From positions 1 through 64,000 of the forward strand of contig JAOACS010000001.1 in assembly GCA_026417655.1 (NCBI GenBank): 64,000 nucleotides of DNA, in the 5' to 3' direction. Position 1 is the stretch's first letter. Every line of letters begins with the position of its first letter. Below are positions 30,768 to 63,484 of the stretch, piece after piece. This DNA is from Syntrophobacterales bacterium (lineage in GTDB: Bacteria > Desulfobacterota > Syntrophobacteria > Syntrophobacterales > Thermodesulforhabdaceae). The translations under genes and the position numbers were made by a program. The notes below the pieces were generated by a model. The model was not told the DNA's origin. It was given only the letters and a program-made list of their open reading frames with translations, and did not search any database.

Positions 30768-32121
30768 TGGGTTTCTCCACTTCAGATTTTTTCCTAAAAA
30801 AGCCGTGTTCCAGAATAAGAGAAATAATAATTCCTGAAAGCATACCATTTTTCAAAAATAACTGTGCTATAGATGGAGTTGAAGAAATTATTTCCGTAGG
30901 AAGGATTGAAATAATTAAACCCAGCATAACCGATAACCCCACAATAGTTCCATCCCTTTGGGTGAAAGGAGGTGATGAAACCATTTGAAGAGCAGCTCCA
31001 ATCTGATTTCCCATAGCCATACATAGCACGGCAGACACGACAGATACGGGGATAAAGGCAAAAAATGCGGCAACTTTCGGGAAAAAGCCCATTGCAATGG
31101 TTATTATACCGCAGGCTGAAATAGCGTAACGACTAGCTATCCGCTGTGATGTAACCACTCCAGGACTTATACTGTAGCTTACAAGTCCTACTAGACTTAA
31201 GACTCCACAAACGATGCCGGATAAACCATTTAATATGAGCGATCGTCTGAGTGAAGAATTAAGGCGTTTTCTGTCGGTTACAGAGGCTATAGCTGTAAGA
31301 CTTCCCAAAATATTTACTAGAACTGCTACGTATGCAATGGTAAAGGAGACTCCAGAGATCAAAGATACTTGAGGACTTACCGGTGTCCATAGTGAAGGGA
31401 AGTTTACCCATGAAGCCTTCTCCCATATTGAGAAATCGAGCTTTCCTATGATGGAATAAAGGACTGTCCCCACCGTAACTCCTATGAGAAGAGATAGGGT
31501 TTTCCACAGTCCCTTGAGATGGTAACTACAAAGGGCTGTAAAGATAACAATTCCTGATGAGAAGACAAAAAACACCCACTGACTCTCCTTACTGTAGGCG
31601 TTTTGAGCTTCAGAAAGGGAGGTTGCCAAATGGGGAGCAAGAGATAAAGCAATGAGAAGAAGTATTGTAATCACGATGTTACGGGTAAATACCTTTGAAA
31701 AAAAGGAGACATTCCCGAGAGCACCGAGAAGGATCATAATAAAACTTCCCAGTATCATCCCCGATTGGATGGAGGATATTCCATAGGGAACCAAGGAAAG
31801 CATTGTTAGAAGGTGAGCAGTTGATGGTCCTTCAATTACAGGATACCTATGTCCCCAAAGACTTTGAACTAGGGTGAAGAGACCCGCTGTTATAAAAGTT
31901 AATTGAACGAAGGAGACTCTCGATTCATCCGACATTTTAAAGGCTTCAGCACAGAGAGCCGTGACGGTGAGAATGGCCGGGAAAAGAAAAAGAGTCCATT
32001 GGACACCGTACGCGAAGGCAAGAGCTATTGGGAGCTTATCATCGATACCGTAGATGTAGAAAGGTTGAGATCTTTCCAATTTTTTCCCGCTTAGCCTGAA
32101 ATGATCAATGCTGTATTTCAA
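30754..32121 (-). CDS. Nucleobase:cation symporter-2 (uracil/xanthine permease family)
   Basis: A 455-residue polytopic membrane protein with about 12-14 hydrophobic helices. Family motifs include [20 protein letters not shown], the half helix around [20 protein letters not shown], and [20 protein letters not shown]. The NCS2 family carries uracil, xanthine, urate or other purines with protons or sodium. The end of the upstream prs gene overlaps its start by 17 bases, fitting a nucleotide-metabolism cluster. Confidence 0.86.
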
Positions 32122-33067
32122 AGAGCGAGCTTATAGAATCTTCATTATGAATCCCCTTTATGGCCTCTGAGAAAAGCCTTGCTGCGGAAATCACTTTGAT
32201 CTTGGGACAGAGGACAGCCTGAGGACGAAGGGGTATGGTATCGGTTACGACGAGGGTTTCGATAGGCGAGTCTTGAATGTTATTTACAGCATTTCCAGAG
32301 AGAACAGCATGGGTTACGCAGGCATGGATCGTTTTAGCACCCTTGTTCTTAAGGGCGCTTGCGGCTTCTTTCAGTGTTCCAGCGGTATCAACCATGTCAT
32401 CGAGTATTATGGCGGTCTTGTCTTTTACATCTCCTATAATATGCATAACTTCGGCCTTGTTCGCATCTAATCTTCTCTTGTCTATAAGGGCAAGCCCTGC
32501 ATTTAGAATGTTGGCATAGGCTCTAGCTCTGGGAACTCCTCCTGCATCTGGTGATACGATTACTATGTTATTTCCAAAGTGTTCCTTTATGTAGGGGAGA
32601 AGAACTGGAGAAGCGTAAAGATTGTCAACAGGTATATCGAAAAATCCCTGAATTTGGCCTGCATGAAGATCCATCGTAAGGATTCTATTAGCCCCAGCTC
32701 TCGATAGTAGATCAGCTACAAGCCTTGCTGTGATAGGAACCCTTGGTTTATTCTTTCTATCCTGGCGGGCATAGCTGTAATAGGGCATAACGGCAGTAAT
32801 ACGTCTAGCTGAAGCTCTTTTAAGAGCGTCGATCATTACAAGGAGTTCCATAAGGTGATCGTTTACTGGATGAGACCCTGACTGGATTACAAAAACATCG
32901 GCACCTCGCACATTTTCTTGAATCTCAACTCTAATTTCTCCATCACTAAAGGTCGAAACTAGGGCCTTTCCAAGGGGGAGACCAAGATTTCGACAGATGT
33001 TTTCCGCAAGTTGCACATTGCTGTTTCCAGTAAATATCTTTACCCCATACATAGCCATAATGAGCAT
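32105..33067 (-). CDS. prs: Ribose-phosphate pyrophosphokinase (PRPP synthetase)
   Basis: Prs makes PRPP, the precursor for histidine, purine, pyrimidine and NAD synthesis. The sequence [60 protein letters not shown] and the PRPP-binding loop [16 protein letters not shown] are all standard. Length (320) is normal. Translation may start at the second or third Met (MAMYGVKIF). It heads the leftward block that runs down to secA and beyond. Confidence 0.97.
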
Positions 33068-33140
33068 TCCTCCAGAAGTAAATCTTTATCCTACTGGGTC
33101 AAAATTACGACCGTCCTTTCGTTACCCTATGGTTTTTAAA

Positions 33141-33154
33141 AAAGCAACCGCTTT
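33141..33154 (-). terminator. Weak minus-strand hairpin after the small Cys-rich gene
   Basis: AAAGC and GCTTT pair around a four-base loop. On the minus strand the stem is followed by six T. It lies in the 185-base gap between the 33253-33522 gene and prs, which otherwise shows no gene. Only five pairs form, so the call is tentative. Confidence 0.35.
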
Positions 33155-33252
33155 TAGTTTTCCGCGAGGAGTTATCTTTTTGGAGGTATTAAGGTTAAAT
33201 CTTGAAAAAATATAACACCCTTTGGTGGGCACCCAACAGGGAACCAAACTCC

Positions 33253-33522
33253 CTATGAAGCGGATTCACTGTGCCTTGTAGAGATGCGGGCCCGTCTTCT
33301 ACGTCCTGAAGTGTTATAATATTCTCTTTCAAGCAACTTACATTGGAGCGGTTTGATCACTTCACCTATCTCCCATTTTGGACGTTCTGGATCTGTAAGA
33401 AGCTCTTTGATACTGTTCCATGTCTTGGGGTTATAGTAGGCACATTCTTTCCCTTCATTGAATAATTCGCAATGATACTGGCTGACGTATTTTTCGTATT
33501 TCTTGCAATACTTTATTTTCAT
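33253..33522 (-). CDS. Small Cys-containing protein of unknown function
   Basis: An 89-residue protein with a good AAGGAG ribosome site upstream of ATG 33520-33522. It starts MKIKYCKKYEKYVSQYHCEL and has cysteines at 6, 18, 27 and about 61, plus an Arg-rich end (SGRRRRARISTRHSESAS). The first three cysteines with Lys/Tyr spacing could bind metal. I do not recognise the family and assign no function. It lies between prs and the gene at 33695-34105, all leftward. Confidence 0.6.
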   Translation of the reverse strand: MKIKYCKKYEKYVSQYHCELFNEGKECAYYNPKTWNSIKELLTDPERPKWEIGEVIKPLQCKLLEREYYNTSGRRRRARISTRHSESAS

Positions 33523-43953: not shown

Positions 43954-44004
43954 AGGATGCTCGCAAGCTAGGGTATAAACTTGTAAAAGGGGAGGAGAGA
44001 TCTT

Positions 44005-45141
44005 ATGAAACGGTGGATCGTGGGAGTTCTAGCCTTTTGTTCGGGACTTTTCTTTAGTCTAGTAGTTGCCAACGGTGCCAATGAGGTAAAGATCGGTCTA
44101 ATGGGACCGATGACGGGGAAGTGGGCGAGTGAAGGTCAAGAGATGAAACAGGTTCTTGATCTCCTGGTGGAAGATGTTAATGCTAAGGGTGGCGTTAATG
44201 GAATGAAGGTTAATCTTGTTGTAGAAGACGATGGTGGTGATCCTAGAACCGCTGCTTTGGCTGCTCAGAAGCTTGTTACCCAAAAGGTTATAGCCGTCAT
44301 AGGGACATATGGATCTGCTGTTACAGAAGCTTCTCAGGGAATCTTTAATGAGGCTAAGGTTATCCAAATAGCGAACGGCTCTACAGCAATAAGACTTACT
44401 GAAAAAAAGCTTCCCTACTTCTTCCGAACCTGTCCAAGAGATGACGAACAGGCGAAAGTAGCCGTTCAGACAATACGAAAACTTGGTTTTAAAAACATTG
44501 CTATTCTCCATGACAATACCACCTATGCCAAAGGACTTGCAGAGGAAGCGAAGGGACTTCTCGAAAAGGAAGCGGGGGGAGTAAAGATAGTATTTTTTGA
44601 CGCTCTTACCCCAGGTGAACAGGACTACACAGCGATTCTTACTAAGCTTAAGAGCGCTTCCCCAGATATGGTCTTCTTTACTGGTTACTACCCTGAGGCA
44701 GGTTTACTTCTTAAGCAGAAAAAGGAAATGAAGTGGGATGTCCCCTTTATAGGGGGAGATGCTACAAATAACCCCGATCTTGTAAAGATAGCCGGTAAGG
44801 AAGCTGCGGTAGGATTCTACTTCCTTAGTGCTCCACTTCCTAAGGATCTTCCCAGTGGGGAAGCTAAAACCCTTCTCGAGGCCTTTTCCAAAAAATATGG
44901 GAATCCTCCTAACTCAATCTATGCTGTTTTGGCAGGCGATGGCTTCCGCGTTATAATTAAAGCCATTGAAACGACGAAATCTACCGATCCTGACAAGTTG
45001 GCCGATTACCTTCATAAGGAATTAAAAGACTTTCCCGGATTTACGGGATCCATAGCCTTCGATGAAAAGGGTGACAGGGTGGGAGAAGTATATCGAGTTT
45101 ATAAGGTTGACGAAAAGGGTCAGTTTATTTTACAGCCGTAA
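44005..45141 (+). CDS. LIV-type ABC importer, periplasmic binding protein (operon 1)
   Basis: A 378-residue type-I binding protein (LivK family) with signal peptide MKRWIVGVLAFCSGLFFSLV. The start of the mature part, KIGLMGPMTGKWASEGQEMK, and VVEDDGGDPRTAALAAQKLV, FRTCPRDDEQAKVAVQTI are family motifs. It delivers branched-chain or other amino acids, or amides, to the LivHMGF complex encoded directly downstream. The substrate cannot be read from sequence. Confidence 0.92.
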   Translation: MKRWIVGVLAFCSGLFFSLVVANGANEVKIGLMGPMTGKWASEGQEMKQVLDLLVEDVNAKGGVNGMKVNLVVEDDGGDPRTAALAAQKLVTQKVIAVIGTYGSAVTEASQGIFNEAKVIQIANGSTAIRLTEKKLPYFFRTCPRDDEQAKVAVQTIRKLGFKNIAILHDNTTYAKGLAEEAKGLLEKEAGGVKIVFFDALTPGEQDYTAILTKLKSASPDMVFFTGYYPEAGLLLKQKKEMKWDVPFIGGDATNNPDLVKIAGKEAAVGFYFLSAPLPKDLPSGEAKTLLEAFSKKYGNPPNSIYAVLAGDGFRVIIKAIETTKSTDPDKLADYLHKELKDFPGFTGSIAFDEKGDRVGEVYRVYKVDEKGQFILQP

Positions 45142-53513: not shown

Positions 53514-55097
53514 ATGGTGACTCTTCTCGATTATGGGGCTGGAAATGTAAGAAGCGTTGTAAATGCCCTAACCACCTTGGGAGAGAAGGTTAAGTTTGTG
53601 AAAAGACCTGAGGACATAATCGATGCGGAAAAACTCGTTTTTCCTGGGGTAGGTTCCTTTGGCGAGATGATGAAGGTGCTAAAGAAAAAAGGTTTTGATG
53701 AGGCTTTGAGAGTCTATATCTTCTCTGGACGACCCTTTTTCGGTATTTGTCTTGGTCTTCAGGCTCTTTTTGAAGAAAGCGAAGAGTCTCCGGGTGTATC
53801 TGGGCTTGGGATATTTAAGGGGGTTGTTAGAAGGCTTAGAACCTCCCTTTCTGTTCCCCATATAGGGTGGAATGGTATCAAGGCTAGAAAACCATCCTCC
53901 ATATTCTCAGACATGAGAGGCACAGAAAAGTTTTATTTTGTTCATTCCTATTGTGTTGATCCAGAGGATACCAGTATTGTGCTCACTACTACGGACTATG
54001 GAGAGGAAGATTTTGTGAGCGCTGTAGAATGGGGGAATCTGGTTGCTACCCAATTTCATCCAGAAAAGAGTGGTCAGGTTGGACTTAGGATGTTAAGAAA
54101 CTTTCTAGATGGCAAACAATTATCACCTCGTCTGCCTTCCTCTATACCTGAAAAGACTAAGCTTGCTAAACGTATTATAGCCTGTCTCGATGTTCGTGCT
54201 AGTGATAGGGGAGAGTTGGTAGTTACGAAGGGGAATCAGTATGATGTGCGAGATCGGGAAAGTAGAGAAGTCCGAAACCTTGGCCATCCTGTGGAGCTTG
54301 CTCACCGTTATTACGAAGAGGGTGCCGATGAGATTACCTTTCTGAATATTACCGGTTTTCGAGATTTTCCTCTCCTTGATATGCCTATGTTGGAAGTTTT
54401 ACGGAAGACCTCCGAACGGGTCTTTGTCCCCTTAACGATAGGAGGTGGAATTCGTGATTACGTTGATCGGCAGGGCCAGGAGTATTCGGCCCTTGATGTG
54501 GCCTCGGAATATTTCCGTTCCGGAGCCGATAAGGTCTCCATAGGAAGCGATGCGGTATTAATAGTGGAAGAAGTGCTTAGTCGAGGTCCTTCGGGAAAGA
54601 GTTCTATTGAGCAGATATCCCGGGTTTACGGAAATCAGGCGGTTGTTATCTCCATCGATCCACGTCGAGTATATGTATCTAAACCGACGTGGGGATCACA
54701 TGTAGTGATTCCCACGAAGATTCCGGGGCCGAAGGGAGAACGTTATTGTTGGTATCAGTGCACAATAAAGGGTGGCCGAGAGGGAAGGGATGTAGATGCG
54801 GTAACTCTTGCAAAGGTTTGTGAATCTCTTGGAGCGGGAGAGATCCTTCTAAACTCTATCGATAGGGACGGAACGAATAGGGGTTTCGATACGGAATTAG
54901 TGAAAGTAATATCTGATGCCGTATCTATCCCTGTTATCGCATCCAGTGGAGCTGGATGTGCAAGACATTTTCTAGAAGTCTTTCTTGAAACCGATGTGGA
55001 AGCAGCCCTTGCGGCAGGTATCTTCCATAGAAGAGAAGTGACTATTCCAGAGGTTAAGGCCTTTCTAAAGGGGCACCTTGAGGTAAGGGAACTATGA
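53514..55097 (+). CDS. hisHF: Fused imidazole glycerol phosphate synthase HisHF (eukaryote His7 type)
   Basis: One 527-residue protein joins the HisH glutaminase (about 1-205: GICLGLQALF with the Cys nucleophile, HPEKSGQVG) to the HisF cyclase (about 215-527: RIIACLDVRAS, TIGGGIRDYV, SIDPRRVYV, IASSGAG). Bacteria normally use two separate proteins. The cyclase carries insertions and motifs of fungal and plant HIS7: LVVTKGNQYDVR, FLNITGFRD, ADKVSIGSDAV and GPKGERYCWYQCTIKGGREG. It catalyses the fifth step of histidine synthesis, using ammonia channelled from glutamine. hisG and hisI are 41 kb away. The gene overlaps the dppB-like gene by four bases. Confidence 0.94.
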   Translation: MVTLLDYGAGNVRSVVNALTTLGEKVKFVKRPEDIIDAEKLVFPGVGSFGEMMKVLKKKGFDEALRVYIFSGRPFFGICLGLQALFEESEESPGVSGLGIFKGVVRRLRTSLSVPHIGWNGIKARKPSSIFSDMRGTEKFYFVHSYCVDPEDTSIVLTTTDYGEEDFVSAVEWGNLVATQFHPEKSGQVGLRMLRNFLDGKQLSPRLPSSIPEKTKLAKRIIACLDVRASDRGELVVTKGNQYDVRDRESREVRNLGHPVELAHRYYEEGADEITFLNITGFRDFPLLDMPMLEVLRKTSERVFVPLTIGGGIRDYVDRQGQEYSALDVASEYFRSGADKVSIGSDAVLIVEEVLSRGPSGKSSIEQISRVYGNQAVVISIDPRRVYVSKPTWGSHVVIPTKIPGPKGERYCWYQCTIKGGREGRDVDAVTLAKVCESLGAGEILLNSIDRDGTNRGFDTELVKVISDAVSIPVIASSGAGCARHFLEVFLETDVEAALAAGIFHRREVTIPEVKAFLKGHLEVREL

Positions 55098-56103: not shown

Positions 56104-57159
56104 GTGGCCATGAAAGTGGGAAGACGTTCATATTGGGGGATGGTATGGTCTAGATTTCGCCGTAACCCTATGGCTATGGTTGGCCTATTTATCACCTGTT
56201 TTTTTTGGGCTGTGGCTATCTTTGCTCCTCTTCTTGCCAATGACCGTCCCATTATAGCCCATGTAAACGGTTCCTTTATGTTTCCTTTATTTTACAGTAA
56301 GGGTGAAACGATAAAAAGTGATTCTTCGATCTCATTAGATAGGTGGAAAAGCTTTCGACAATATAAGGCCATCTCGCCTTTTCAGAGGCTTAATGAGAAA
56401 GAGCTTTCCGGTTGGATTATCTGGCCAATCGTTCCATATTCTCCTACGGAACATGATCTTATGGAAATTCTTTCCCCGCCTAGCAGTAAACATTGGTTTG
56501 GAACGGACGATAGAGGTCGAGATGTTCTTAGTCGCATGATTTACGGGTCCAGAGTTTCTCTTTCGGTGGGTGTCGTGGCTGTAGGAATTGCTACAGTAGT
56601 TGGCATAATACTAGGAGGGATTGGGGGATACTTTGGAGGATGGGTTGACGCTTTAGTAAATCGCATAATAGAAATACTACTTACTATTCCGACCTTTTTT
56701 CTAATTATCGCTATAATAGCGTTTCTTCCACCAAGCATCTATAATATAATGGTAGTAATTGGTCTTACGGGTTGGACAGGGATAGCTCGCTTCGTCAGAG
56801 CTGAATTTCTTAAACTAAAGGCTATGGATTTTGTTATGGCCCTAAAGGCTCTTGGAGCAAGCCCTGTAAGAATTATTTTTTTGCATATGCTACCAAACGC
56901 CATGGCTCCGGTCCTTGTTGCAATTGTCTTTGGAGTGGCAGGGGCGATTCTTACGGAATCGGGGCTCAGTTTTCTCGGTTTCGGCGTGCCACCACCAACA
57001 CCGAGTTGGGGAGATATTCTTAGCCAGAGTCGCGATTACGTAGAGTTCGCATGGTGGCTTACAGTTTTCCCTGGATCGGCAATATTTCTTACAATAACTG
57101 CTTACAATGTAGTCGGTGAAGGACTTCGAGATGCTATGGATCCGAAGCTTTATAGATAG
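56104..57159 (+). CDS. Dpp/Opp-type ABC permease (DppC-like)
   Basis: A 351-residue permease, longer than the usual 280-300 because of a large periplasmic segment (about 50-130). HWFGTDDRGRDVLSRMIYGS and SLSVGVVAVGIATVVGIILG are DppC motifs; MLPNAMAPVLVAIVFGVAGA with ILTESGLSFLGFGVPPPTPS is the ATPase-contact loop. A GTG at 56104 or ATG at 56110 may start translation. The family-5 binding protein gene at 17014-18603 may be its partner; no ATPase genes are in the window. Confidence 0.91.
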   Translation: MAMKVGRRSYWGMVWSRFRRNPMAMVGLFITCFFWAVAIFAPLLANDRPIIAHVNGSFMFPLFYSKGETIKSDSSISLDRWKSFRQYKAISPFQRLNEKELSGWIIWPIVPYSPTEHDLMEILSPPSSKHWFGTDDRGRDVLSRMIYGSRVSLSVGVVAVGIATVVGIILGGIGGYFGGWVDALVNRIIEILLTIPTFFLIIAIIAFLPPSIYNIMVVIGLTGWTGIARFVRAEFLKLKAMDFVMALKALGASPVRIIFLHMLPNAMAPVLVAIVFGVAGAILTESGLSFLGFGVPPPTPSWGDILSQSRDYVEFAWWLTVFPGSAIFLTITAYNVVGEGLRDAMDPKLYR

Positions 57160-57170
57160 AGTTTTATGAC

Positions 57171-57199
57171 TTGACCATTACTTTTCTTTTTTCTATAAG
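57171..57199 (+). promoter_or_regulatory. Strong promoter of the Phe leader and LIV operon 2
   Basis: TTGACC (57171-57176), a 17-base spacer and TATAAG (57194-57199): each hexamer has only one mismatch to consensus. Transcription would begin near 57206, about 50 bases before the leader ATG. Confidence 0.75.
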
Positions 57200-57255
57200 G
57201 AGATCGTAAAAGTTATCTTTAGGGGTATGTATTAGGGTTTATAGGAGAGAGATCT

Positions 57256-57345
57256 ATGACAGGGTTAAAAAGGTCCTTTCGTGGCTTCTTCTTTTGCTTT
57301 TTTAGAAAGGGGGAGCCTGCGATGGGACAAAAACTATATCCGTAA
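57256..57345 (+). CDS. Phenylalanine-rich leader peptide (attenuator)
   Basis: A 29-codon frame with AGGAG eight to nine bases before its ATG. Residues 7-16 read SFRGFFFCFF: six Phe among residues 8-16 (codons 57277-57279, 57286-57294 and 57298-57303). This composition is like the leader peptides of E. coli pheA and pheST. The segment that pairs with the terminator arm lies within its codons 18-23. The peptide itself probably has no function; ribosome stalling at Phe codons would be the sensor. The rest (RKGEPAMGQKLYP) shows no other enrichment. Confidence 0.75.
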   Translation: MTGLKRSFRGFFFCFFRKGEPAMGQKLYP

Positions 57346-57417
57346 CCTTTAAAATTAGAAAAAGATAAAAGAGATCGCAGGTGATCCCCCAAGCAGGTGG
57401 ATCGCCTGCGGTTTTTT
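57283..57417 (+). promoter_or_regulatory. Phe attenuator: three alternative pairings
   Basis: Pairing 1:2 joins GGCTTCTTCTTT (57283-57294, covering Phe codons 11-13) with AAAGGGGGAGCC (57306-57317), 12 pairs with three G-U. Pairing 2:3, the antiterminator, joins GGGGGA (57309-57314) with TCCCCC (57385-57390) and CCTGCGAT (57316-57323) with ATCGCAGG (57374-57381). Pairing 3:4, the terminator, joins CGCAGGTGATCC (57376-57387) with GGATCGCCTGCG (57399-57410), followed by six T at 57412-57417. When Phe-tRNA is scarce the ribosome stalls over segment 1, freeing segment 2 for the antiterminator. With ample Phe-tRNA, 1:2 and the terminator form. Confidence 0.7.
57376..57417 (+). terminator. Intrinsic terminator of the attenuator (segment 3:4)
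   Basis: Twelve pairs (one G-U) with an 11-base loop, immediately followed by GTTTTTTG. This is a strong rho-independent terminator located before the first gene of LIV operon 2. Confidence 0.85.
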
Positions 57418-57424
57418 GTTTGTT

Positions 57425-57462
57425 GAAAGCCGTGGGCGTAGAAGCTCACGGCTTTCTTTTTT
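57425..57462 (+). terminator. Second tandem intrinsic terminator before LIV operon 2
   Basis: GAAAGCCGTGGGC (57425-57437) pairs with GCTCACGGCTTTC (57444-57456), 13 pairs with one G-U, loop GTAGAA, then six T. It sits 38 bases before the ATG at 57500. I found no alternative pairing that would disrupt it, so how transcription passes is unexplained; see findings. Confidence 0.8.
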
Positions 57463-57499: not shown

Positions 57500-58702
57500 A
57501 TGGAAAGTAGAAGGGGTAAAATTTCAAAAGTAAATTGGCAACGGATTCTAATGGCTATTTTCCTTATTTTTGTTTTGTCCTTTGGGTTAATTTGGAGTGA
57601 AAGGGGAACGGATGCCAAAGATAAGGAACCATACAAAATTGGGGCGATCTTTTCGGTGACAGGTGTAGGATCCTTTCTTGGCGAGCCTGAAAAGAAGACA
57701 GCCCTTATGATCGTGGAAGAGGTAAATAAAAAGGGGGGAATAAACGGTCATCCTGTGGAGCTCATAGTCTATGATGATGAAAGCGATACAACCAAGGCGG
57801 CTCTTGCTGCCAAAAGGCTTATAAAAAAGGATATGGTTTCAGTCATTGTTGGTCCCACAAGGAGCGGCGAAAGTCTCGCCGTAGTGCCAATTGCTGAGGA
57901 GGCAAAGATACCTCTTATTTCTTGTGCTGCAAGCTACAAGATTGTTACCCCAGTTAGTGAGAGGCGTTGGATCTTTAAGACCGCCCAATCTGATCAACAT
58001 GCCGTAGAGCAAATGTATGAATTCATGAGAAACAAGGGGATTCGCAAGGTGGGGATCTTAAGTGATTCCACAGGCTTTGGTGCAAGCGGTAGAGAGGAGC
58101 TTCTAAGGTATGCTCCCCACTATGGAATCGAAATTGTAGCCGATGAAAGGTATGGACCTAAAGACACTGACTTAACCGCTCAGTTTACAAAAATTCGTTC
58201 TCTTAAGCCCGATGCGATAATAAACTGGTCCATTGGACCCACCCAGATTCTTGCAGTTCAAACCTGGCGAAACCTTGGTATGACCGATATACCACTTTTT
58301 CAGAGTCACGGCTTTGGAAGTAGAAAGAATTTAGAGATTCTTGGACAGGCTGCCGAAGGTGTATTACTCCCCATCTCACCGGTTATTATTGGAAAACTCC
58401 TTCCCAACGATCATCCTCAAAAGAAGGTAACCGTCGAATATGCCAATGCCTATGAGACGCTTTACAAAGAGCCGGTTTCAGCCTTTGGTGGATACGCCTG
58501 GGATGCCGTTCAGCTCGCCCTTTCCGCCTTTAAGGCGGTAGGAAATGATCCAGCAAAGATTCGAGATTATTTAGAAGGTTTGAAAAATTTTGTGGGCCAG
58601 AGTGGAGTATTTAACTTCTCTCCAGATGATCATAATGGACTCACGAAGAAAGATTTGATAATGGTTGAAGTTCGTAACGGAGACTGGGTATTAGCGAAGT
58701 AA
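57500..58702 (+). CDS. LIV-type ABC importer, periplasmic binding protein (operon 2)
   Basis: A 400-residue binding protein with a signal anchor at about 15-33 (ILMAIFLIFVLSFGLIW). The mature part begins PYKIGAIFSVTGVGSFLGEP, with INGHPVELIVYDDESDTTKA and QTWRNLGMTDIPLFQSHGFG further on, typical for LivK-type proteins. The ligand is unknown. The Phe attenuator upstream and the phenylacetate-CoA ligase downstream suggest an aromatic compound. The ATG has AGGAGG upstream. Confidence 0.9.
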   Translation: MESRRGKISKVNWQRILMAIFLIFVLSFGLIWSERGTDAKDKEPYKIGAIFSVTGVGSFLGEPEKKTALMIVEEVNKKGGINGHPVELIVYDDESDTTKAALAAKRLIKKDMVSVIVGPTRSGESLAVVPIAEEAKIPLISCAASYKIVTPVSERRWIFKTAQSDQHAVEQMYEFMRNKGIRKVGILSDSTGFGASGREELLRYAPHYGIEIVADERYGPKDTDLTAQFTKIRSLKPDAIINWSIGPTQILAVQTWRNLGMTDIPLFQSHGFGSRKNLEILGQAAEGVLLPISPVIIGKLLPNDHPQKKVTVEYANAYETLYKEPVSAFGGYAWDAVQLALSAFKAVGNDPAKIRDYLEGLKNFVGQSGVFNFSPDDHNGLTKKDLIMVEVRNGDWVLAK

Positions 58703-58780: not shown

Positions 58781-59653
58781 ATGTCGATTATGGAAGAATT
58801 CCTTCAGTATCTGATCTCTGGCATAACGGTTGGTATGATCTATGTGCTTGTTGCCCTCGGTTATAACATTATCTACAACGTCACAGAGGTTATAAATTTT
58901 GCTCAAGGTGAGTTTGTAATGCTTGGTGGCCTCTGTGCCGTCTTCTACTATGAGAGTTTGCATCTTCCCCTGTGGGTTGCCTTTTTCATGTCGATAGGAA
59001 CTGTTGGTGTGATTGGGCTTATCTTTGAGAAATTCGCTATCCGTTATGCAAGAAGTCAGAGTGTCTTGACACTGATTATAGTTACCATCGCCTTTTCTAT
59101 TATACTGAAGGGGTCGGCCATGTTTATTTGGGGGAAGGATCCATATAGCCTTCCGGCCTTTTCCGCCGGCTCACCCTGGATGGTTGCTGGAGCAGCAGTT
59201 CAGAGGCAAAGCCTTTGGATTATGGGGATAAGTTTAGTTATTATCTCGGGGCTTTCCATATTTTTCCATAACTCCTTTTACGGTAAGGCCATGTGTGCCT
59301 GTGCAGATAACCCCATAGCGGCTAAAATGATGGGAATTCCTGTGAGAAGAATGATCCTTCTTTCTTTTACTCTTAGCGCTGCTTTGGGGGCAGCAGGGGG
59401 TGTAATTATTACTCCACTATCTCTTATGGAGTATGATCGTGGAGCCTTACTTGGACTTAAGGGGTTTAGTGTGGCAGTTCTAGGGGGACTTGGTAATTTT
59501 TGGGGAGCCCTTATGGCGGGTATCTTTATAGGTATTGGGGAATCTTTCTGTGCGGGCTACATATCGTCGGGATATAAGGACGCCGTCGCGCTGGTGGCAC
59601 TTTTGATAGTGCTCTTTGTAAGGCCTGAAGGACTCTTGGGTAAGACTAAGTAA
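58781..59653 (+). CDS. livH: LIV-type ABC permease LivH (operon 2)
   Basis: A 290-residue permease: YLISGITVGMIYVLVALGYN, INFAQGEFVMLGGL and GFSVAVLGGLGNFWGALMAG are the LivH signatures. It differs clearly from operon 1 LivH, so the operons are old paralogues, not a recent copy. Confidence 0.93.
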   Translation: MSIMEEFLQYLISGITVGMIYVLVALGYNIIYNVTEVINFAQGEFVMLGGLCAVFYYESLHLPLWVAFFMSIGTVGVIGLIFEKFAIRYARSQSVLTLIIVTIAFSIILKGSAMFIWGKDPYSLPAFSAGSPWMVAGAAVQRQSLWIMGISLVIISGLSIFFHNSFYGKAMCACADNPIAAKMMGIPVRRMILLSFTLSAALGAAGGVIITPLSLMEYDRGALLGLKGFSVAVLGGLGNFWGALMAGIFIGIGESFCAGYISSGYKDAVALVALLIVLFVRPEGLLGKTK

Positions 59654-59683: not shown

Positions 59684-60649
59684 ATGAATAGGAAGAATCT
59701 ACCTGGATTTCTAGTTTTTCTGGTCTGTATTGGACTTTTTCCTGTCTTCGCAACTAGAATTTCTGCTATCCAACATTACTTAGATGTTATGATCTTTGGT
59801 GGAATTTTTGGAATTGTGGCCATAGGGCTTTCTCTTCTTATGGGTTATGCAGGACAAATCTCCCTTGCTCATGCTGCCTTTATGGGGATTGGAGCCTACT
59901 CTTCAGGAATTCTTACCACCCATTTTAATTTCTCTCCCGTTCCTGCTCTTTTTCTTGGACTTCTGATAACGGCAATCATAGCCTTTTCCGTTGGAGTTCC
60001 CAGTCTTCGGCTTAAAGGACATTATTTGGCAATGGCCACCCTTGGGTTCGGTGTTATAGTCCACATCATATTTAGCGAGGAAGTCAATTGGACAGGGGGA
60101 CCATCAGGTCTTGTGGGTATACCGGGTTTTGGTCTAGGGGATTGGAAATTGAAATCTACTCTTCAATGGTATTACTTCGTGTGGCTGTGGGTAGCTGTTT
60201 CTATTTTGATTGCTCTTAATTTGGTAAATTCCCGTATAGGCAGAGCATTTCGGGCTATTCATGAGGATGAGAAGGCGGCAGAGGCCATGGGGGTTCCCAC
60301 AGCTCGATATAAGGTTCAGATATTCGTTGTAAGTGCAGCGATGGCGGCCTTTGCAGGAAGCCTTTATGCCCACTATGTGGAGTTTATTAACCCGGGGTCC
60401 TTCGATCTCGTATGGTCGATAAGATTTATACTTATGGTTATGGTTGGAGGTATCCAAAGTATATGGGGTTCGCTTCTGGGGAGTCTGTTTTTAACCTTTC
60501 TTAGTAATGAATGGCTTCAGGTTTTTGCTGAGCTAGAGATTCTTATATATGGCATAATCTTATTTATAATTTCACTTTTCTTTCCCGATGGTCTATTTCC
60601 TGTTATCTTTCGTTTCTTAGCTCAACAGTTGGAGAGAAGGTATGAATGA
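59684..60649 (+). CDS. livM: LIV-type ABC permease LivM (operon 2)
   Basis: A 321-residue permease with LLMGYAGQISLAHAAFMGIG, LRLKGHYLAMATLGFGVIVH, WTGGPSGLVGIPGFG and FRAIHEDEKAAEAMGVPTAR, all LivM features. It overlaps livG by eight bases. Confidence 0.93.
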   Translation: MNRKNLPGFLVFLVCIGLFPVFATRISAIQHYLDVMIFGGIFGIVAIGLSLLMGYAGQISLAHAAFMGIGAYSSGILTTHFNFSPVPALFLGLLITAIIAFSVGVPSLRLKGHYLAMATLGFGVIVHIIFSEEVNWTGGPSGLVGIPGFGLGDWKLKSTLQWYYFVWLWVAVSILIALNLVNSRIGRAFRAIHEDEKAAEAMGVPTARYKVQIFVVSAAMAAFAGSLYAHYVEFINPGSFDLVWSIRFILMVMVGGIQSIWGSLLGSLFLTFLSNEWLQVFAELEILIYGIILFIISLFFPDGLFPVIFRFLAQQLERRYE

Positions 60650-61421
60650 AGCTTCTGAAATCCCCATATTGGAAATCAGAGAACTAGGAAAGAGCTTCGG
60701 AGGCGTTGAGGCGCTCCACGATATAACTTTTTCCGTCCCTTCGGGAGTTATCCAATCCATAATTGGACCAAACGGTGCGGGAAAAACCACTCTTCTTAAC
60801 TGCGTAAGTGGCATTATAAAACCTTCCCATGGAAAGATTTATTTTCTTGGTAAACCTATTGAAAATCTTCCCCCCCACAGGATAGCTACCCTTGGAATTT
60901 CTCGGACCTTCCAGCATGTGGCTCTCTTTAAAAGAATGACTGTCATAGAGAATGTAGCTATTGGTAGACACTCTAAAACGAGGTCGGGATTCTTGGCTTG
61001 CACATTACGCCTCTCATCTATGAGGCGGGAGGAGAGGGATATATTTACCAAGGCCGAAGAATGGCTCGAGTTTGTAGGACTTTCTGATGAAATGTGGAAG
61101 GAGGCAGGATCTCTTCCTCTTGGAAAACAAAAGCTTTTGGAAGTCGCTAGAGCCCTTGCAGCGGAACCACGTTTACTTCTTCTTGACGAACCTGCTGGAG
61201 GCCTGAACACTTCAGAAACAGAACAATTTGGTGATCTTATCGAAAGAATTCGAAATCTTGGTATTACGATCCTCCTAATAGAACACGATATGAACCTTGT
61301 TATGGAAAAGTCGGACTATGTCGTAGTTCTACACTATGGTAAATTGCTTGCCACAGGAACACCTCGGGAGATTAAAAGAAATCCTCAAGTAATAGAGGTT
61401 TATCTGGGAAAAGAGGAATGA
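60642..61421 (+). CDS. livG: LIV-type ABC ATPase LivG (operon 2)
   Basis: A 259-residue ATPase. Walker A is GPNGAGKTT. The signature region reads LPLGKQKLLEVARAL, slightly off the usual LSxGxQ. Walker B is LLLLDEPAGGLN and HDMNLVMEKSDYVVVLHYG follows. It overlaps livF by four bases. Confidence 0.94.
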   Translation: MNEASEIPILEIRELGKSFGGVEALHDITFSVPSGVIQSIIGPNGAGKTTLLNCVSGIIKPSHGKIYFLGKPIENLPPHRIATLGISRTFQHVALFKRMTVIENVAIGRHSKTRSGFLACTLRLSSMRREERDIFTKAEEWLEFVGLSDEMWKEAGSLPLGKQKLLEVARALAAEPRLLLLDEPAGGLNTSETEQFGDLIERIRNLGITILLIEHDMNLVMEKSDYVVVLHYGKLLATGTPREIKRNPQVIEVYLGKEE

Positions 61422-62158
61422 GGGGAATGCTAACGGTAAAGAGTGTTCATGCCTATTACGGTGGGATCCATGCTTTGAAGGGTGTTTCTCTTCACGTTGC
61501 AGAAGGAGAGATTGTAACGCTTGTTGGAGCCAATGGAGCTGGAAAAACTACGATGGTAAGGGTCATTTGTGGGCTTCTCAAACCTTCTAAGGGATCAATC
61601 GTATTTGAGGGTCATAATTTGCTTTCGCTTTCTACAGAAAAAATAATAGAGCTTGGAATTGGACTGGTCCCAGAGGGTCGAGAGATCTTTTCAACCCTTT
61701 CTGTTGAAACCAATCTTGAAATGGGAGCCTTTCTTAAAAGAAAGGATCGAGCCTTTGTTGAAACTATGAAGGAACTAATGTTTTCTCGATTTCCTGTCCT
61801 TAAAAAGAAGAGAAAACAACGAGCCGGCACAATGAGTGGAGGTGAGCAGCAAATGCTTGCCATAGCGAGAGCTCTCATGAGTCAGCCAAGATTTCTGATC
61901 CTTGATGAACCTTCCTTAGGCCTCGCACCCCTTATTGTAAAAGAGATCTTTTCAATTATTGAAGAACTTAGAGCTGAAGGAAAAACCATACTTCTTATAG
62001 AACAGAACGCTAAGGCTGCCCTTAAAATTGCCGACAGGGGTTATGTTTTCGAGACTGGGAAGGTTGTCTTGGAGGGAATAGGTGGGGAGCTATTGGAGCA
62101 TAGAGAGGTCCAACGGGCTTATCTAGGTCGTGGAACCACAAAAATATGGGAGGCTTAA
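61418..62158 (+). CDS. livF: LIV-type ABC ATPase LivF (operon 2)
   Basis: A 246-residue ATPase: Walker A GANGAGKTT, signature MSGGEQQMLAIARAL, Walker B FLILDEPSLGLAP. A second ATG at 61427 could also start it. The ligase gene follows after three bases. Confidence 0.94.
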   Translation: MRGMLTVKSVHAYYGGIHALKGVSLHVAEGEIVTLVGANGAGKTTMVRVICGLLKPSKGSIVFEGHNLLSLSTEKIIELGIGLVPEGREIFSTLSVETNLEMGAFLKRKDRAFVETMKELMFSRFPVLKKKRKQRAGTMSGGEQQMLAIARALMSQPRFLILDEPSLGLAPLIVKEIFSIIEELRAEGKTILLIEQNAKAALKIADRGYVFETGKVVLEGIGGELLEHREVQRAYLGRGTTKIWEA

Positions 62159-62161
62159 AAC

Positions 62162-63484
62162 GTGCATTATGATTATAGAATTTGGGATCCGGAAAAGGAA
62201 TGTATGGATAGGGAGGAGCTTAGGCAGTTACAGCTCGAAAGACTTCAGGCTACGTTAAATCGAGTCTATAAGAACGTATCCTTTTACCGAAGGCGTTTTA
62301 AATCTATAGGTTTCGTCCCAGAAGAGGATCTCACAGATATTGAAGATCTTAAAAAACTTCCCTTTACAACTAGCGAAGATATAAGCGACAGCTATCCCTA
62401 TGAGATGTTTGCTGTTCCTCTTAGAGAGATAGTCCGTATTCACTCCTCCTCCGGAACCATGACAAATCCGCGGGTTGTGGGTTACACGAGACAGGATCTA
62501 AAAATCTGGAGCCGTTTAGTTGCCAGGATACTAACTGCTGCGGGGGTAACTGCCGATGATGTTATTCAGGTAACCTTTGGATATGGGCTTCTTACAGGGG
62601 GGCTTGGGATCCATTACGGTGCCGAGCTCATAGGAGCGTCGGTCCTTCCCACTTCGACGGGTCGCACAGAAAGACAAATTCACATCATGAGGGATTTTAG
62701 AACCACAATCCTAGTATCAACACCATCCTACGCCTTGGTGATAGCTGACCGGATGGAGGCCCTGGGAGTTGATCCTAAGGCTCTATCCCTTAGACATGTT
62801 GTCTGTGGAGGGGAACCCTGGACGGAGGAGATGCGTCGCGAGATTGAGGATAGGCTCTTTGTCACAGCGACCGATAACTATGGTGTGAGCGAAGTTATGG
62901 GACCGGGAGTGGCCGGAGAGTGTCTGGAAAAAGCGGGTATGCATGTCCAGGAAGATCATTTTATAGTTGAAGTGGTAGACCCCGCTACGGGAGAAACGTT
63001 ACCGCCGGGCTCTACTGGGGAATTGGTTATTACGACCCTTACGAAAGAGGCATTTCCGGTAGTTAGATACCGGACGGGCGATCTATGTAGTATTATAGAA
63101 ACTCCCTGTGCCTGCGGGCGAACTACTGTGAGAATTAGTCGAATAGGTGGACGAAGCGACGACGTTGTAGTAATAAAGGGCATAAATATTGTGCCTAAAC
63201 GAATAGGAGAGGTGCTTGAGAGGATTAAGGGCACTAGCCCTCCCTATCAACTTGTGGCCCTTCGGGAAGGTCATGAAGATCACCTAGAAATTCGGATTGG
63301 AATTACAGAAGAGTTTTTCTTCGATAAGATGAGAGATCAGAAGACTTTGGTGGATGAGATGCGACAGAAGGTTGCAAACTTTATAGGTATTACCCCAAGG
63401 ATTCGGCTTGTCGAATTAAACTCTCTCAGAAGGGACCTCCATGGTAACGTGATACTTTTTGTGGACGAAAGAACTACTTCTTAG
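62162..63484 (+). CDS. Phenylacetate-CoA ligase (PaaK family)
   Basis: A 440-residue adenylate-forming enzyme. The N-terminal WDPEKECMDREELRQLQLER is the PaaK start. The ATP loop reads SSGTMTNPRVVGYT, followed by ATDNYGVSEVMGPGVAGEC, VVRYRTGDLCSI and the C-terminal SRIGGRSDDVVVIKGINIVP. PaaK-type enzymes make CoA thioesters of phenylacetate or other aryl acetates. The start codon is GTG (62162) with GGAGG upstream, no ATG being suitable. It closes LIV operon 2. The exact acid activated is not certain. Confidence 0.88.
   Translation: MHYDYRIWDPEKECMDREELRQLQLERLQATLNRVYKNVSFYRRRFKSIGFVPEEDLTDIEDLKKLPFTTSEDISDSYPYEMFAVPLREIVRIHSSSGTMTNPRVVGYTRQDLKIWSRLVARILTAAGVTADDVIQVTFGYGLLTGGLGIHYGAELIGASVLPTSTGRTERQIHIMRDFRTTILVSTPSYALVIADRMEALGVDPKALSLRHVVCGGEPWTEEMRREIEDRLFVTATDNYGVSEVMGPGVAGECLEKAGMHVQEDHFIVEVVDPATGETLPPGSTGELVITTLTKEAFPVVRYRTGDLCSIIETPCACGRTTVRISRIGGRSDDVVVIKGINIVPKRIGEVLERIKGTSPPYQLVALREGHEDHLEIRIGITEEFFFDKMRDQKTLVDEMRQKVANFIGITPRIRLVELNSLRRDLHGNVILFVDERTTS

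Follow-up and report, generated by a model that had tools for sequence, protein, structure and literature searches.

Does the short, phenylalanine-rich reading frame in front of a LIV-type transport operon regulate that operon, and if so, in response to what signal and to what end? The question was raised by the window, a stretch of 64,000 nucleotides (contig JAOACS010000001.1, assembly GCA_026417655.1) from a sulfate-reducer-like Syntrophobacterales bacterium, in which a sequence-only reading had recognised a complete phenylalanine attenuator. Judged by its anatomy, its conservation and covariation, the codon runs of paralogous operons and the content of the operon, the region is very likely a ribosome-mediated transcription attenuator that reads charged tRNA-Phe and controls a probable arylacetate-salvage operon, with the stalling, the termination, the relay between its two terminators and the substrate deduced from sequence.

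Leader peptide and alternative pairings

The upstream neighbour, a dipeptide-type ABC operon, ends at 57159, 12 bases 5' of the promoter, and the elements of the attenuator follow in this order:

57171 to 57199, + strand: putative promoter, read directly (-35 TTGACC 57171-57176, 17-base spacer, -10 TATAAG 57194-57199)
57256 to 57345, + strand: predicted leader peptide ORF, MTGLKRSFRGFFFCFFRKGEPAMGQKLYP (ATG 57256, stop TAA 57343-57345)
57280 to 57295, + strand: segment 1, contains Phe codons 11-13 and pairs with segment 2
57305 to 57323, + strand: segment 2, pairs with segment 1 (via 57305-57321) or segment 3 (via 57309-57323)
57371 to 57390, + strand: segment 3, pairs with segment 2 (57374-57390) or segment 4
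57396 to 57415, + strand: segment 4, 3' arm of terminator T1, pairs with segment 3 and is followed by a T-run
57425 to 57438, + strand: segment 5, 5' arm of terminator T2 and alternative partner of segment 4 (57403-57416)
57444 to 57456, + strand: segment 6, 3' arm of terminator T2, followed by a T-run

The promoter, which had been called near-consensus, is present with its 17-base spacer and a good -35 box, and is imperfect as a whole: its -10 box lacks the final T, which is why it was absent from the list of a consensus promoter scan. The leader of the sister species (L031) likewise has TTGACC upstream, and several other relatives have TTGACA or TTGACT there. The leader of 29 codons, six of them for Phe (residues 8, 11, 12, 13, 15 and 16), was confirmed, and AGGAG lies upstream of its ATG; the region thus combines a short putative leader ORF, a codon run for one amino acid and a predicted ribosome-binding site.

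Folding with ViennaRNA recovered the three mutually exclusive pairings of the sequence-only reading and supplied their energies: 1:2 (57280-57295 with 57305-57321; 16 pairs, -19.0 kcal/mol), 2:3 (57309-57323 with 57374-57390; -26.9 kcal/mol), for which the pairing and its place held while the count rose from 14 pairs to 15, and 3:4 (57371-57390 with 57396-57415; 19 pairs, about -30 kcal/mol, then a T-run). The antiterminator 2:3 and the terminator 3:4, with its U-tract, exclude each other. Two further structures had been missed, namely a second terminator, T2 (57425-57456; 13 pairs, -23.6, with a T-run), and a 4:5 helix (57403-57416 with 57425-57438; 14 pairs, -21.3), whose loop of 8 bases takes in the T-run of T1 and whose formation excludes both 3:4 and T2.

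At equilibrium 3:4 is stronger than 2:3, and the switch must therefore be kinetic, as in other attenuators. With the nascent RNA extended to the end of segment 3 and the ribosome position simulated, a stall at Phe 8-13 gave 2:3 (about 15 pairs) and a stall at Phe 15-16 progressively less of it; a ribosome past segment 2 gave no 2:3, and 1:2 was preferred with no ribosome present. With phenylalanine plentiful, the ribosome would run through the leader and mask segment 2, which would then refold with segment 1, leaving 3:4 to form and transcription to stop at T1; polymerase reading through T1 would meet T2 (5:6). With charged tRNA-Phe scarce, a stall at Phe 11-16 would cover segment 1, 2:3 would form before segment 4 emerges, and the free segment 4 would pair with segment 5, disarming T2 and allowing the operon to be transcribed. 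A small hairpin (57393-57409, -9.4), found in the window and the sister species and followed by GG and the T-run of T1, is compatible with 2:3, so the ON state may leak at T1; no comparable hairpin was found in other family members.

The leader stop indeed lies 20 bases beyond segment 2, a position that had been flagged as making the balance depend on rapid refolding of 1:2. Close relatives account for it: two leaders (G003, TTTTTTAGATAGGGGTCTGCC, and G004) end with TAG at the 5' edge of segment 2, where a terminating ribosome would mask segment 2 and segment 1 would be unneeded. In the genus of the window AAG replaces this TAG codon, and the leader therefore runs on for about a dozen codons. 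Going by these sequences, the long leader looks derived, and the 16-pair 1:2 helix, which is retained in the sister species and is not general to the family, would take over the masking.

Conservation and covariation in relatives

Orthologs of the binding protein encoded by the first structural gene were collected from 40 genomes, mostly of the same order. In 24 genomes a short ORF with a Phe or Tyr run, followed by the same two hairpins, lies upstream of the orthologous operon. A leader with an aromatic run (5 of 9 residues aromatic) was present in 21 of the 26 orthologous upstream regions, compared with 3.9% of dinucleotide shuffles and 2% of stretches elsewhere in these loci. A Phe run alone is no better than chance, Phe/Tyr-rich ORF tails being found in 13% of the 510-base stretches of the AT-rich window; conservation decides, and it is because the leader is conserved well above the shuffled level that the attenuator is more than a chance arrangement. 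The sister species, the closest relative, keeps the leader (FFFCFFRKGEPA) and all pairings, other members of the family have Phe or mixed Phe/Tyr leaders and one a Tyr-only leader, and Tyr leaders stand at the corresponding place in the rest of the order.

Twenty-four attenuators were aligned, with a partial duplicate of G002b as an extra row, and 2:3 was paired in 96% of the alignment cells, compared with 34-45% when the partner was slid, and 4 of its pairs had changed on both sides. T1 and T2 were 97.6% paired, with 9 pairs changed on both sides, and the slid values for 2:3 and T1+T2 together ranged from 34 to 51%. The covariation score was reached by none of 500 shuffles. A clear instance is pair 4-104 of the alignment, at which most members of the window's family have G-C and the order otherwise has C-G.

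These changes bear on the simplest alternative, in which T1 and T2 merely terminate the upstream dipeptide-type ABC operon and the Phe-rich ORF arose by chance in an AT-rich region. It draws on the frequency of aromatic ORF tails in the window and on the lack of any other terminator in the 12 bases between the upstream gene end and the promoter. However, relatives with a different sequence upstream still have the aromatic leader, 2:3 and both hairpins, and 2:3 covaries, which would be pointless for a simple terminator; passive terminators with a chance ORF were rejected on this contradiction and are highly improbable. The phenylalanine attenuator of the sequence-only reading, which had pointed to conserved Phe codons and compensatory changes in relatives as its check, is supported on both counts, the compensatory changes falling in 2:3 and 3:4, and the system is wider than had been claimed, with a coupled T2 and with Phe, Tyr and Trp versions.

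Distribution of the twin-hairpin RNA in the phylum

A covariance model of the two hairpins (R1) matched 52 of 56 genomes from the class at E up to 0.001, and at E up to 0.0001 it matched 144 of the 297 genomes sampled from the phylum; these figures count matches, not attenuators, some matches being of another type (e.g. L295). Most of the 52 phylum-level loci that were read in detail had an aromatic leader. The genes behind these leaders, identified by eye from sequence, encode DAHP synthase, archaeal-type ADH synthase, anthranilate synthase, TrpB-like proteins, LIV-type binding proteins, a PaaK-like protein and aminotransferases.

In the window genome, R1 matched at a Trp leader on contig C18 and at a Trp leader before a second iorA gene on contig C6. 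The former (L273, G000:C18:26977-27094; leader MVIIDVSLNVRGWWWCSIGAHHGYAVG) has the same twin terminators and precedes genes for DAHP synthase, trpE and trpG. The latter (L071/L072, G000:C6, upstream of 31570-33411; FWWW) precedes an iorA operon of the second clade that also encodes a Liv-type transporter and a PaaK relative of its own, a candidate for salvage of indoleacetate to Trp. A Phe leader (...GPGFGFFFFFRKPPEGY) lies 5' of the gene for a prephenate dehydratase domain protein (pheA; L185, G000:C2:179817-180353), with similar leaders in many relatives. Ten loci (L246, L248, L250, L252, L253, L274, L275, L282, L307, L308) have mixed Tyr/Phe, often Trp, leaders before a gene identified by eye as archaeal-type ADH synthase, and in several of them the first hairpin has no U-tract.

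Proposed coupling of the two terminators

Whether T2 takes part in the switch depends on the 4:5 helix. A second alternating pair (4:5 versus 5:6) coupled to the first, as in his-type attenuators, is present in the sequence, and the 4:5 core was kept across the 24 aligned family members with one mismatch; the T2 U-tract was found in 24 of 24. Among 99 copies, a U-tract (5 or more T in 8) followed T2 in 98, and T1 had 4 or fewer T in 17. Two of these 17 belong to the window's family, and most ADH-synthase copies of one type are also among them. In such copies T1 has no usable U-tract, and 3:4 is therefore unlikely to end transcription alone, so that regulation should pass to T2. Segments 4 and 5 matched better within than between loci, both for Watson-Crick matches (5.56 versus 5.10 of 7; 0 of 2000 permutations) and for pairing (6.59 versus 6.36 of 7; 1 of 2000 permutations), in copies that share ancestry and had been collected with a model of this very form, palindromic opposite-strand matches having been removed. 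The two segments change together across the phylum, for example as GCCATGG arms in both hairpins.

It is possible, though we consider it doubtful, that only T1 (1:2, 2:3 and 3:4) is regulatory and that T2, its stem a duplicate, serves as a passive back-up with no 4:5 relay, a reading compatible with the rest of the preferred explanation. Complementarity of 4 and 5 would be automatic if T2 arose by duplication of T1, and 4:5 alone showed no excess covariation among the 24 aligned members of the close family. On the other hand, no ON state could be reached if a strong T2 were never disarmed, T2 is intact in the 17 copies whose T1 lacks a usable U-tract, and the joint change of segments 4 and 5 across the phylum speaks against a passive T2. 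Because T1 has no usable U-tract in these copies and T2 nearly always has one, the comparison supports a his-operon-like relay in which 4:5 would disarm T2.

Operon content and probable substrate

The attenuator precedes six structural genes:

57500 to 58702, + strand: periplasmic substrate-binding protein (SBP; LIV/HAAT type), first structural gene (Pfam PF13458)
58781 to 59653, + strand: LivH-type permease (profile search)
59684 to 60649, + strand: LivM-type permease (profile search)
60642 to 61421, + strand: LivG-type ATPase (profile search)
61418 to 62158, + strand: LivF-type ATPase (profile search)
62162 to 63484, + strand: phenylacetate-CoA ligase family protein (PaaK; TIGR02155, 489 bits, nearly full length)

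Orthologs of the binding protein lead the same operon in relatives, in most of which the order is SBP-livHMGF-paaK-iorA. In the window genome iorA lies outside the operon, alone on contig C26, where no leader was found (L070). The nearest solved structures to the binding protein are LIV-type extracellular ligand-binding receptors, and all five Liv-like genes score far below the NCBIfam cut-offs for branched-chain transporters. PaaK also lies below its cut-off (646.3), and its arylacetate specificity is a lead only.

Going by gene family and regulation, the operon most likely serves salvage of phenylacetate or hydroxyphenylacetate, not branched-chain transport, because an importer, an arylacetate-CoA ligase and an arylpyruvate ferredoxin oxidoreductase sit under a Phe/Tyr attenuator. 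The ABC importer would take in the aryl acid, PaaK would form its CoA ester, and IorAB would reductively carboxylate the ester to a 2-oxo acid, to be transaminated to Phe or Tyr. The carboxylating direction is proposed because genes that open when charged tRNA runs short would be expected to produce the amino acid in question. Methanococcus maripaludis is described as converting aryl acids to aromatic amino acids via indolepyruvate oxidoreductase (Porat et al. 2004, cited in PMC4162585). Since the window genome also encodes prephenate dehydratase for de novo Phe synthesis, salvage would be an alternative source of Phe, not the sole one. The LIV-type genes of the sequence-only reading stand, and a probable salvage operon, with paaK-iorA in relatives, takes the place of amino-acid transport.

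A different function for a real Phe attenuator would be the import of Phe or other aromatic amino acids, with PaaK and IorA serving degradation or overflow. LIV-type importers are usually annotated as amino-acid transporters, and opening an amino-acid importer when charged tRNA-Phe is low would be equally logical; this function is nonetheless unlikely. PaaK and iorA share an operon in relatives, a catabolic pair induced by starvation would be self-defeating whereas reductive carboxylation would feed Phe, and all three paralogous operon types described below join a Liv-type transporter to a PaaK relative or iorA.

Other loci were inspected in the same way. No convincing leader was found at the other SBP paralog of the window genome (C15, L034) or at two lone SBP genes (L036, L049), and no clear leader at L057; that of L054 is degenerate. 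Elsewhere in the window, another LIV-type binding protein gene (43990-45063) is about 30% identical to the one at 57500, and one ORF (53514-55097) encodes fused HisH and HisF (imidazole glycerol phosphate synthase), above both curated cut-offs.

Specifier codons of paralogous operons

Specifier codons were counted in the best 12-codon stretch of each leader. In SBP-first operons outside the window's family these were Y 90, F 13 and W 1 (19 loci, some congeneric ones nearly identical), and within the family the leaders were mostly Phe or mixed (F 24, Y 10; six leaders). A second type, the PaaK-first operons, had F 101, Y 13 and W 8 in 19 loci, which were selected by R1, a model that begins after the codon run. 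The third type, the second-clade IorA operons, had Trp runs such as FWWCWWW (8 loci, an approximate count in which the automatic pick took one wrong ORF, L092). In each of the three types a Liv-type transporter is accompanied by iorA or a PaaK relative.

The PaaK of the PaaK-first operons is about 50% and their SBP about 48% identical, with an ACT-like protein between them in one inspected case; five of these operons (L129, L139, L144, L163, L174), mostly from Desulfobacterales bins, have long Phe leaders (e.g. MRFRFFYFGFFSFLDGFFFRKSIHGPAR). No SBP of this type (45-51%) was found in the window's family, and hence no sign of a PaaK-first operon. The simplest reading of these sequences would be that the SBP-first specifier of the family was re-coded from Tyr to Phe after the Phe operon had been lost. 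One locus (L032, G002:C80) has two binding-protein genes in tandem, with separate attenuators (leaders YYYYYY and FYFYFYFF). The Tyr version is present in Desulfacinum infernum, D. hydrothermale and Desulfoferrobacter suflitae, which are listed as strain genomes, not metagenome bins, and the attenuator may therefore be testable in culture.

Taken across the phylum, the balance of the evidence leans towards a family of relay attenuators, each with two terminators and a specifier exchangeable among Phe, Tyr and Trp, that would run aromatic amino-acid supply in Desulfobacterota-type bacteria. Operons for the parallel salvage of phenylacetate, hydroxyphenylacetate and indoleacetate would be under its control, and the Tyr-type operon of the window lineage would have been re-coded to Phe after loss of a separate Phe operon.

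Comparison with known systems

Leader-peptide attenuators are best known from enterobacterial biosynthetic operons. The pheA and pheST attenuators of Enterobacteria combine a run of Phe codons, mutually exclusive 1:2, 2:3 and 3:4 hairpins and an intrinsic terminator. The window has in common with them a Phe-run leader, exclusive hairpins and a terminator before the structural genes, and the likeness of design drawn by the sequence-only reading is supported; whereas pheA and pheST serve biosynthesis or PheRS, the attenuator of the window precedes an importer and PaaK, and has twin coupled terminators. Leader peptide and terminator logic are also shared with the Trp, His, Leu, Thr and Phe leaders of Rfam. 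The window and ten relatives had no Rfam match at the gathering threshold, and no leader family had a match with E up to 10 in the window region, relaxed matches lying far below gathering scores.

A survey of 255 genomes discusses leader-peptide attenuators as gamma-proteobacterial in origin and placed before biosynthetic genes (PMC3766115). A Phe attenuator before an ABC importer and a phenylacetate-CoA ligase had been thought undescribed, and the open-access literature on Tyr/Phe attenuators, delta-proteobacterial leaders, tandem-terminator attenuators and arylacetate operons yielded no report of this system, which is weak evidence. T-box leaders let tRNA charging control amino-acid-related genes, including transporters, with a specifier codon that predicts specificity (PMC2494555). 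The charging signal and the predictive codon are common to both systems; the window has no tRNA-binding leader, and its sensor would be the translating ribosome. The proposed salvage shares with the route of Methanococcus maripaludis the conversion of aryl acids to aromatic amino acids via indolepyruvate oxidoreductase, and differs from it in being bacterial, equipped with a dedicated ABC importer and placed under attenuation control.

Here the same attenuation logic would control importers and CoA ligases, and for each operon that is poorly annotated as 'branched-chain amino acid' the codon run directly and testably predicts the aromatic product. The locus also offers an apparent natural case of specifier switching, from Tyr to Phe, and of two terminators in one switch.

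The closest parallel to that switch is the attenuator of the his operon of Salmonella and E. coli, which has six segments, A to F, with B:C and D:E disarming the last hairpin. An alternating six-segment chain that passes on the antiterminator state is common to both, whereas here the third-fourth hairpin usually has its own U-tract, giving two terminators, and the specifiers are aromatic. The six-segment principle is thus known from the his operon, and two terminators, probably coupled, with aromatic specifiers are the variation on it.
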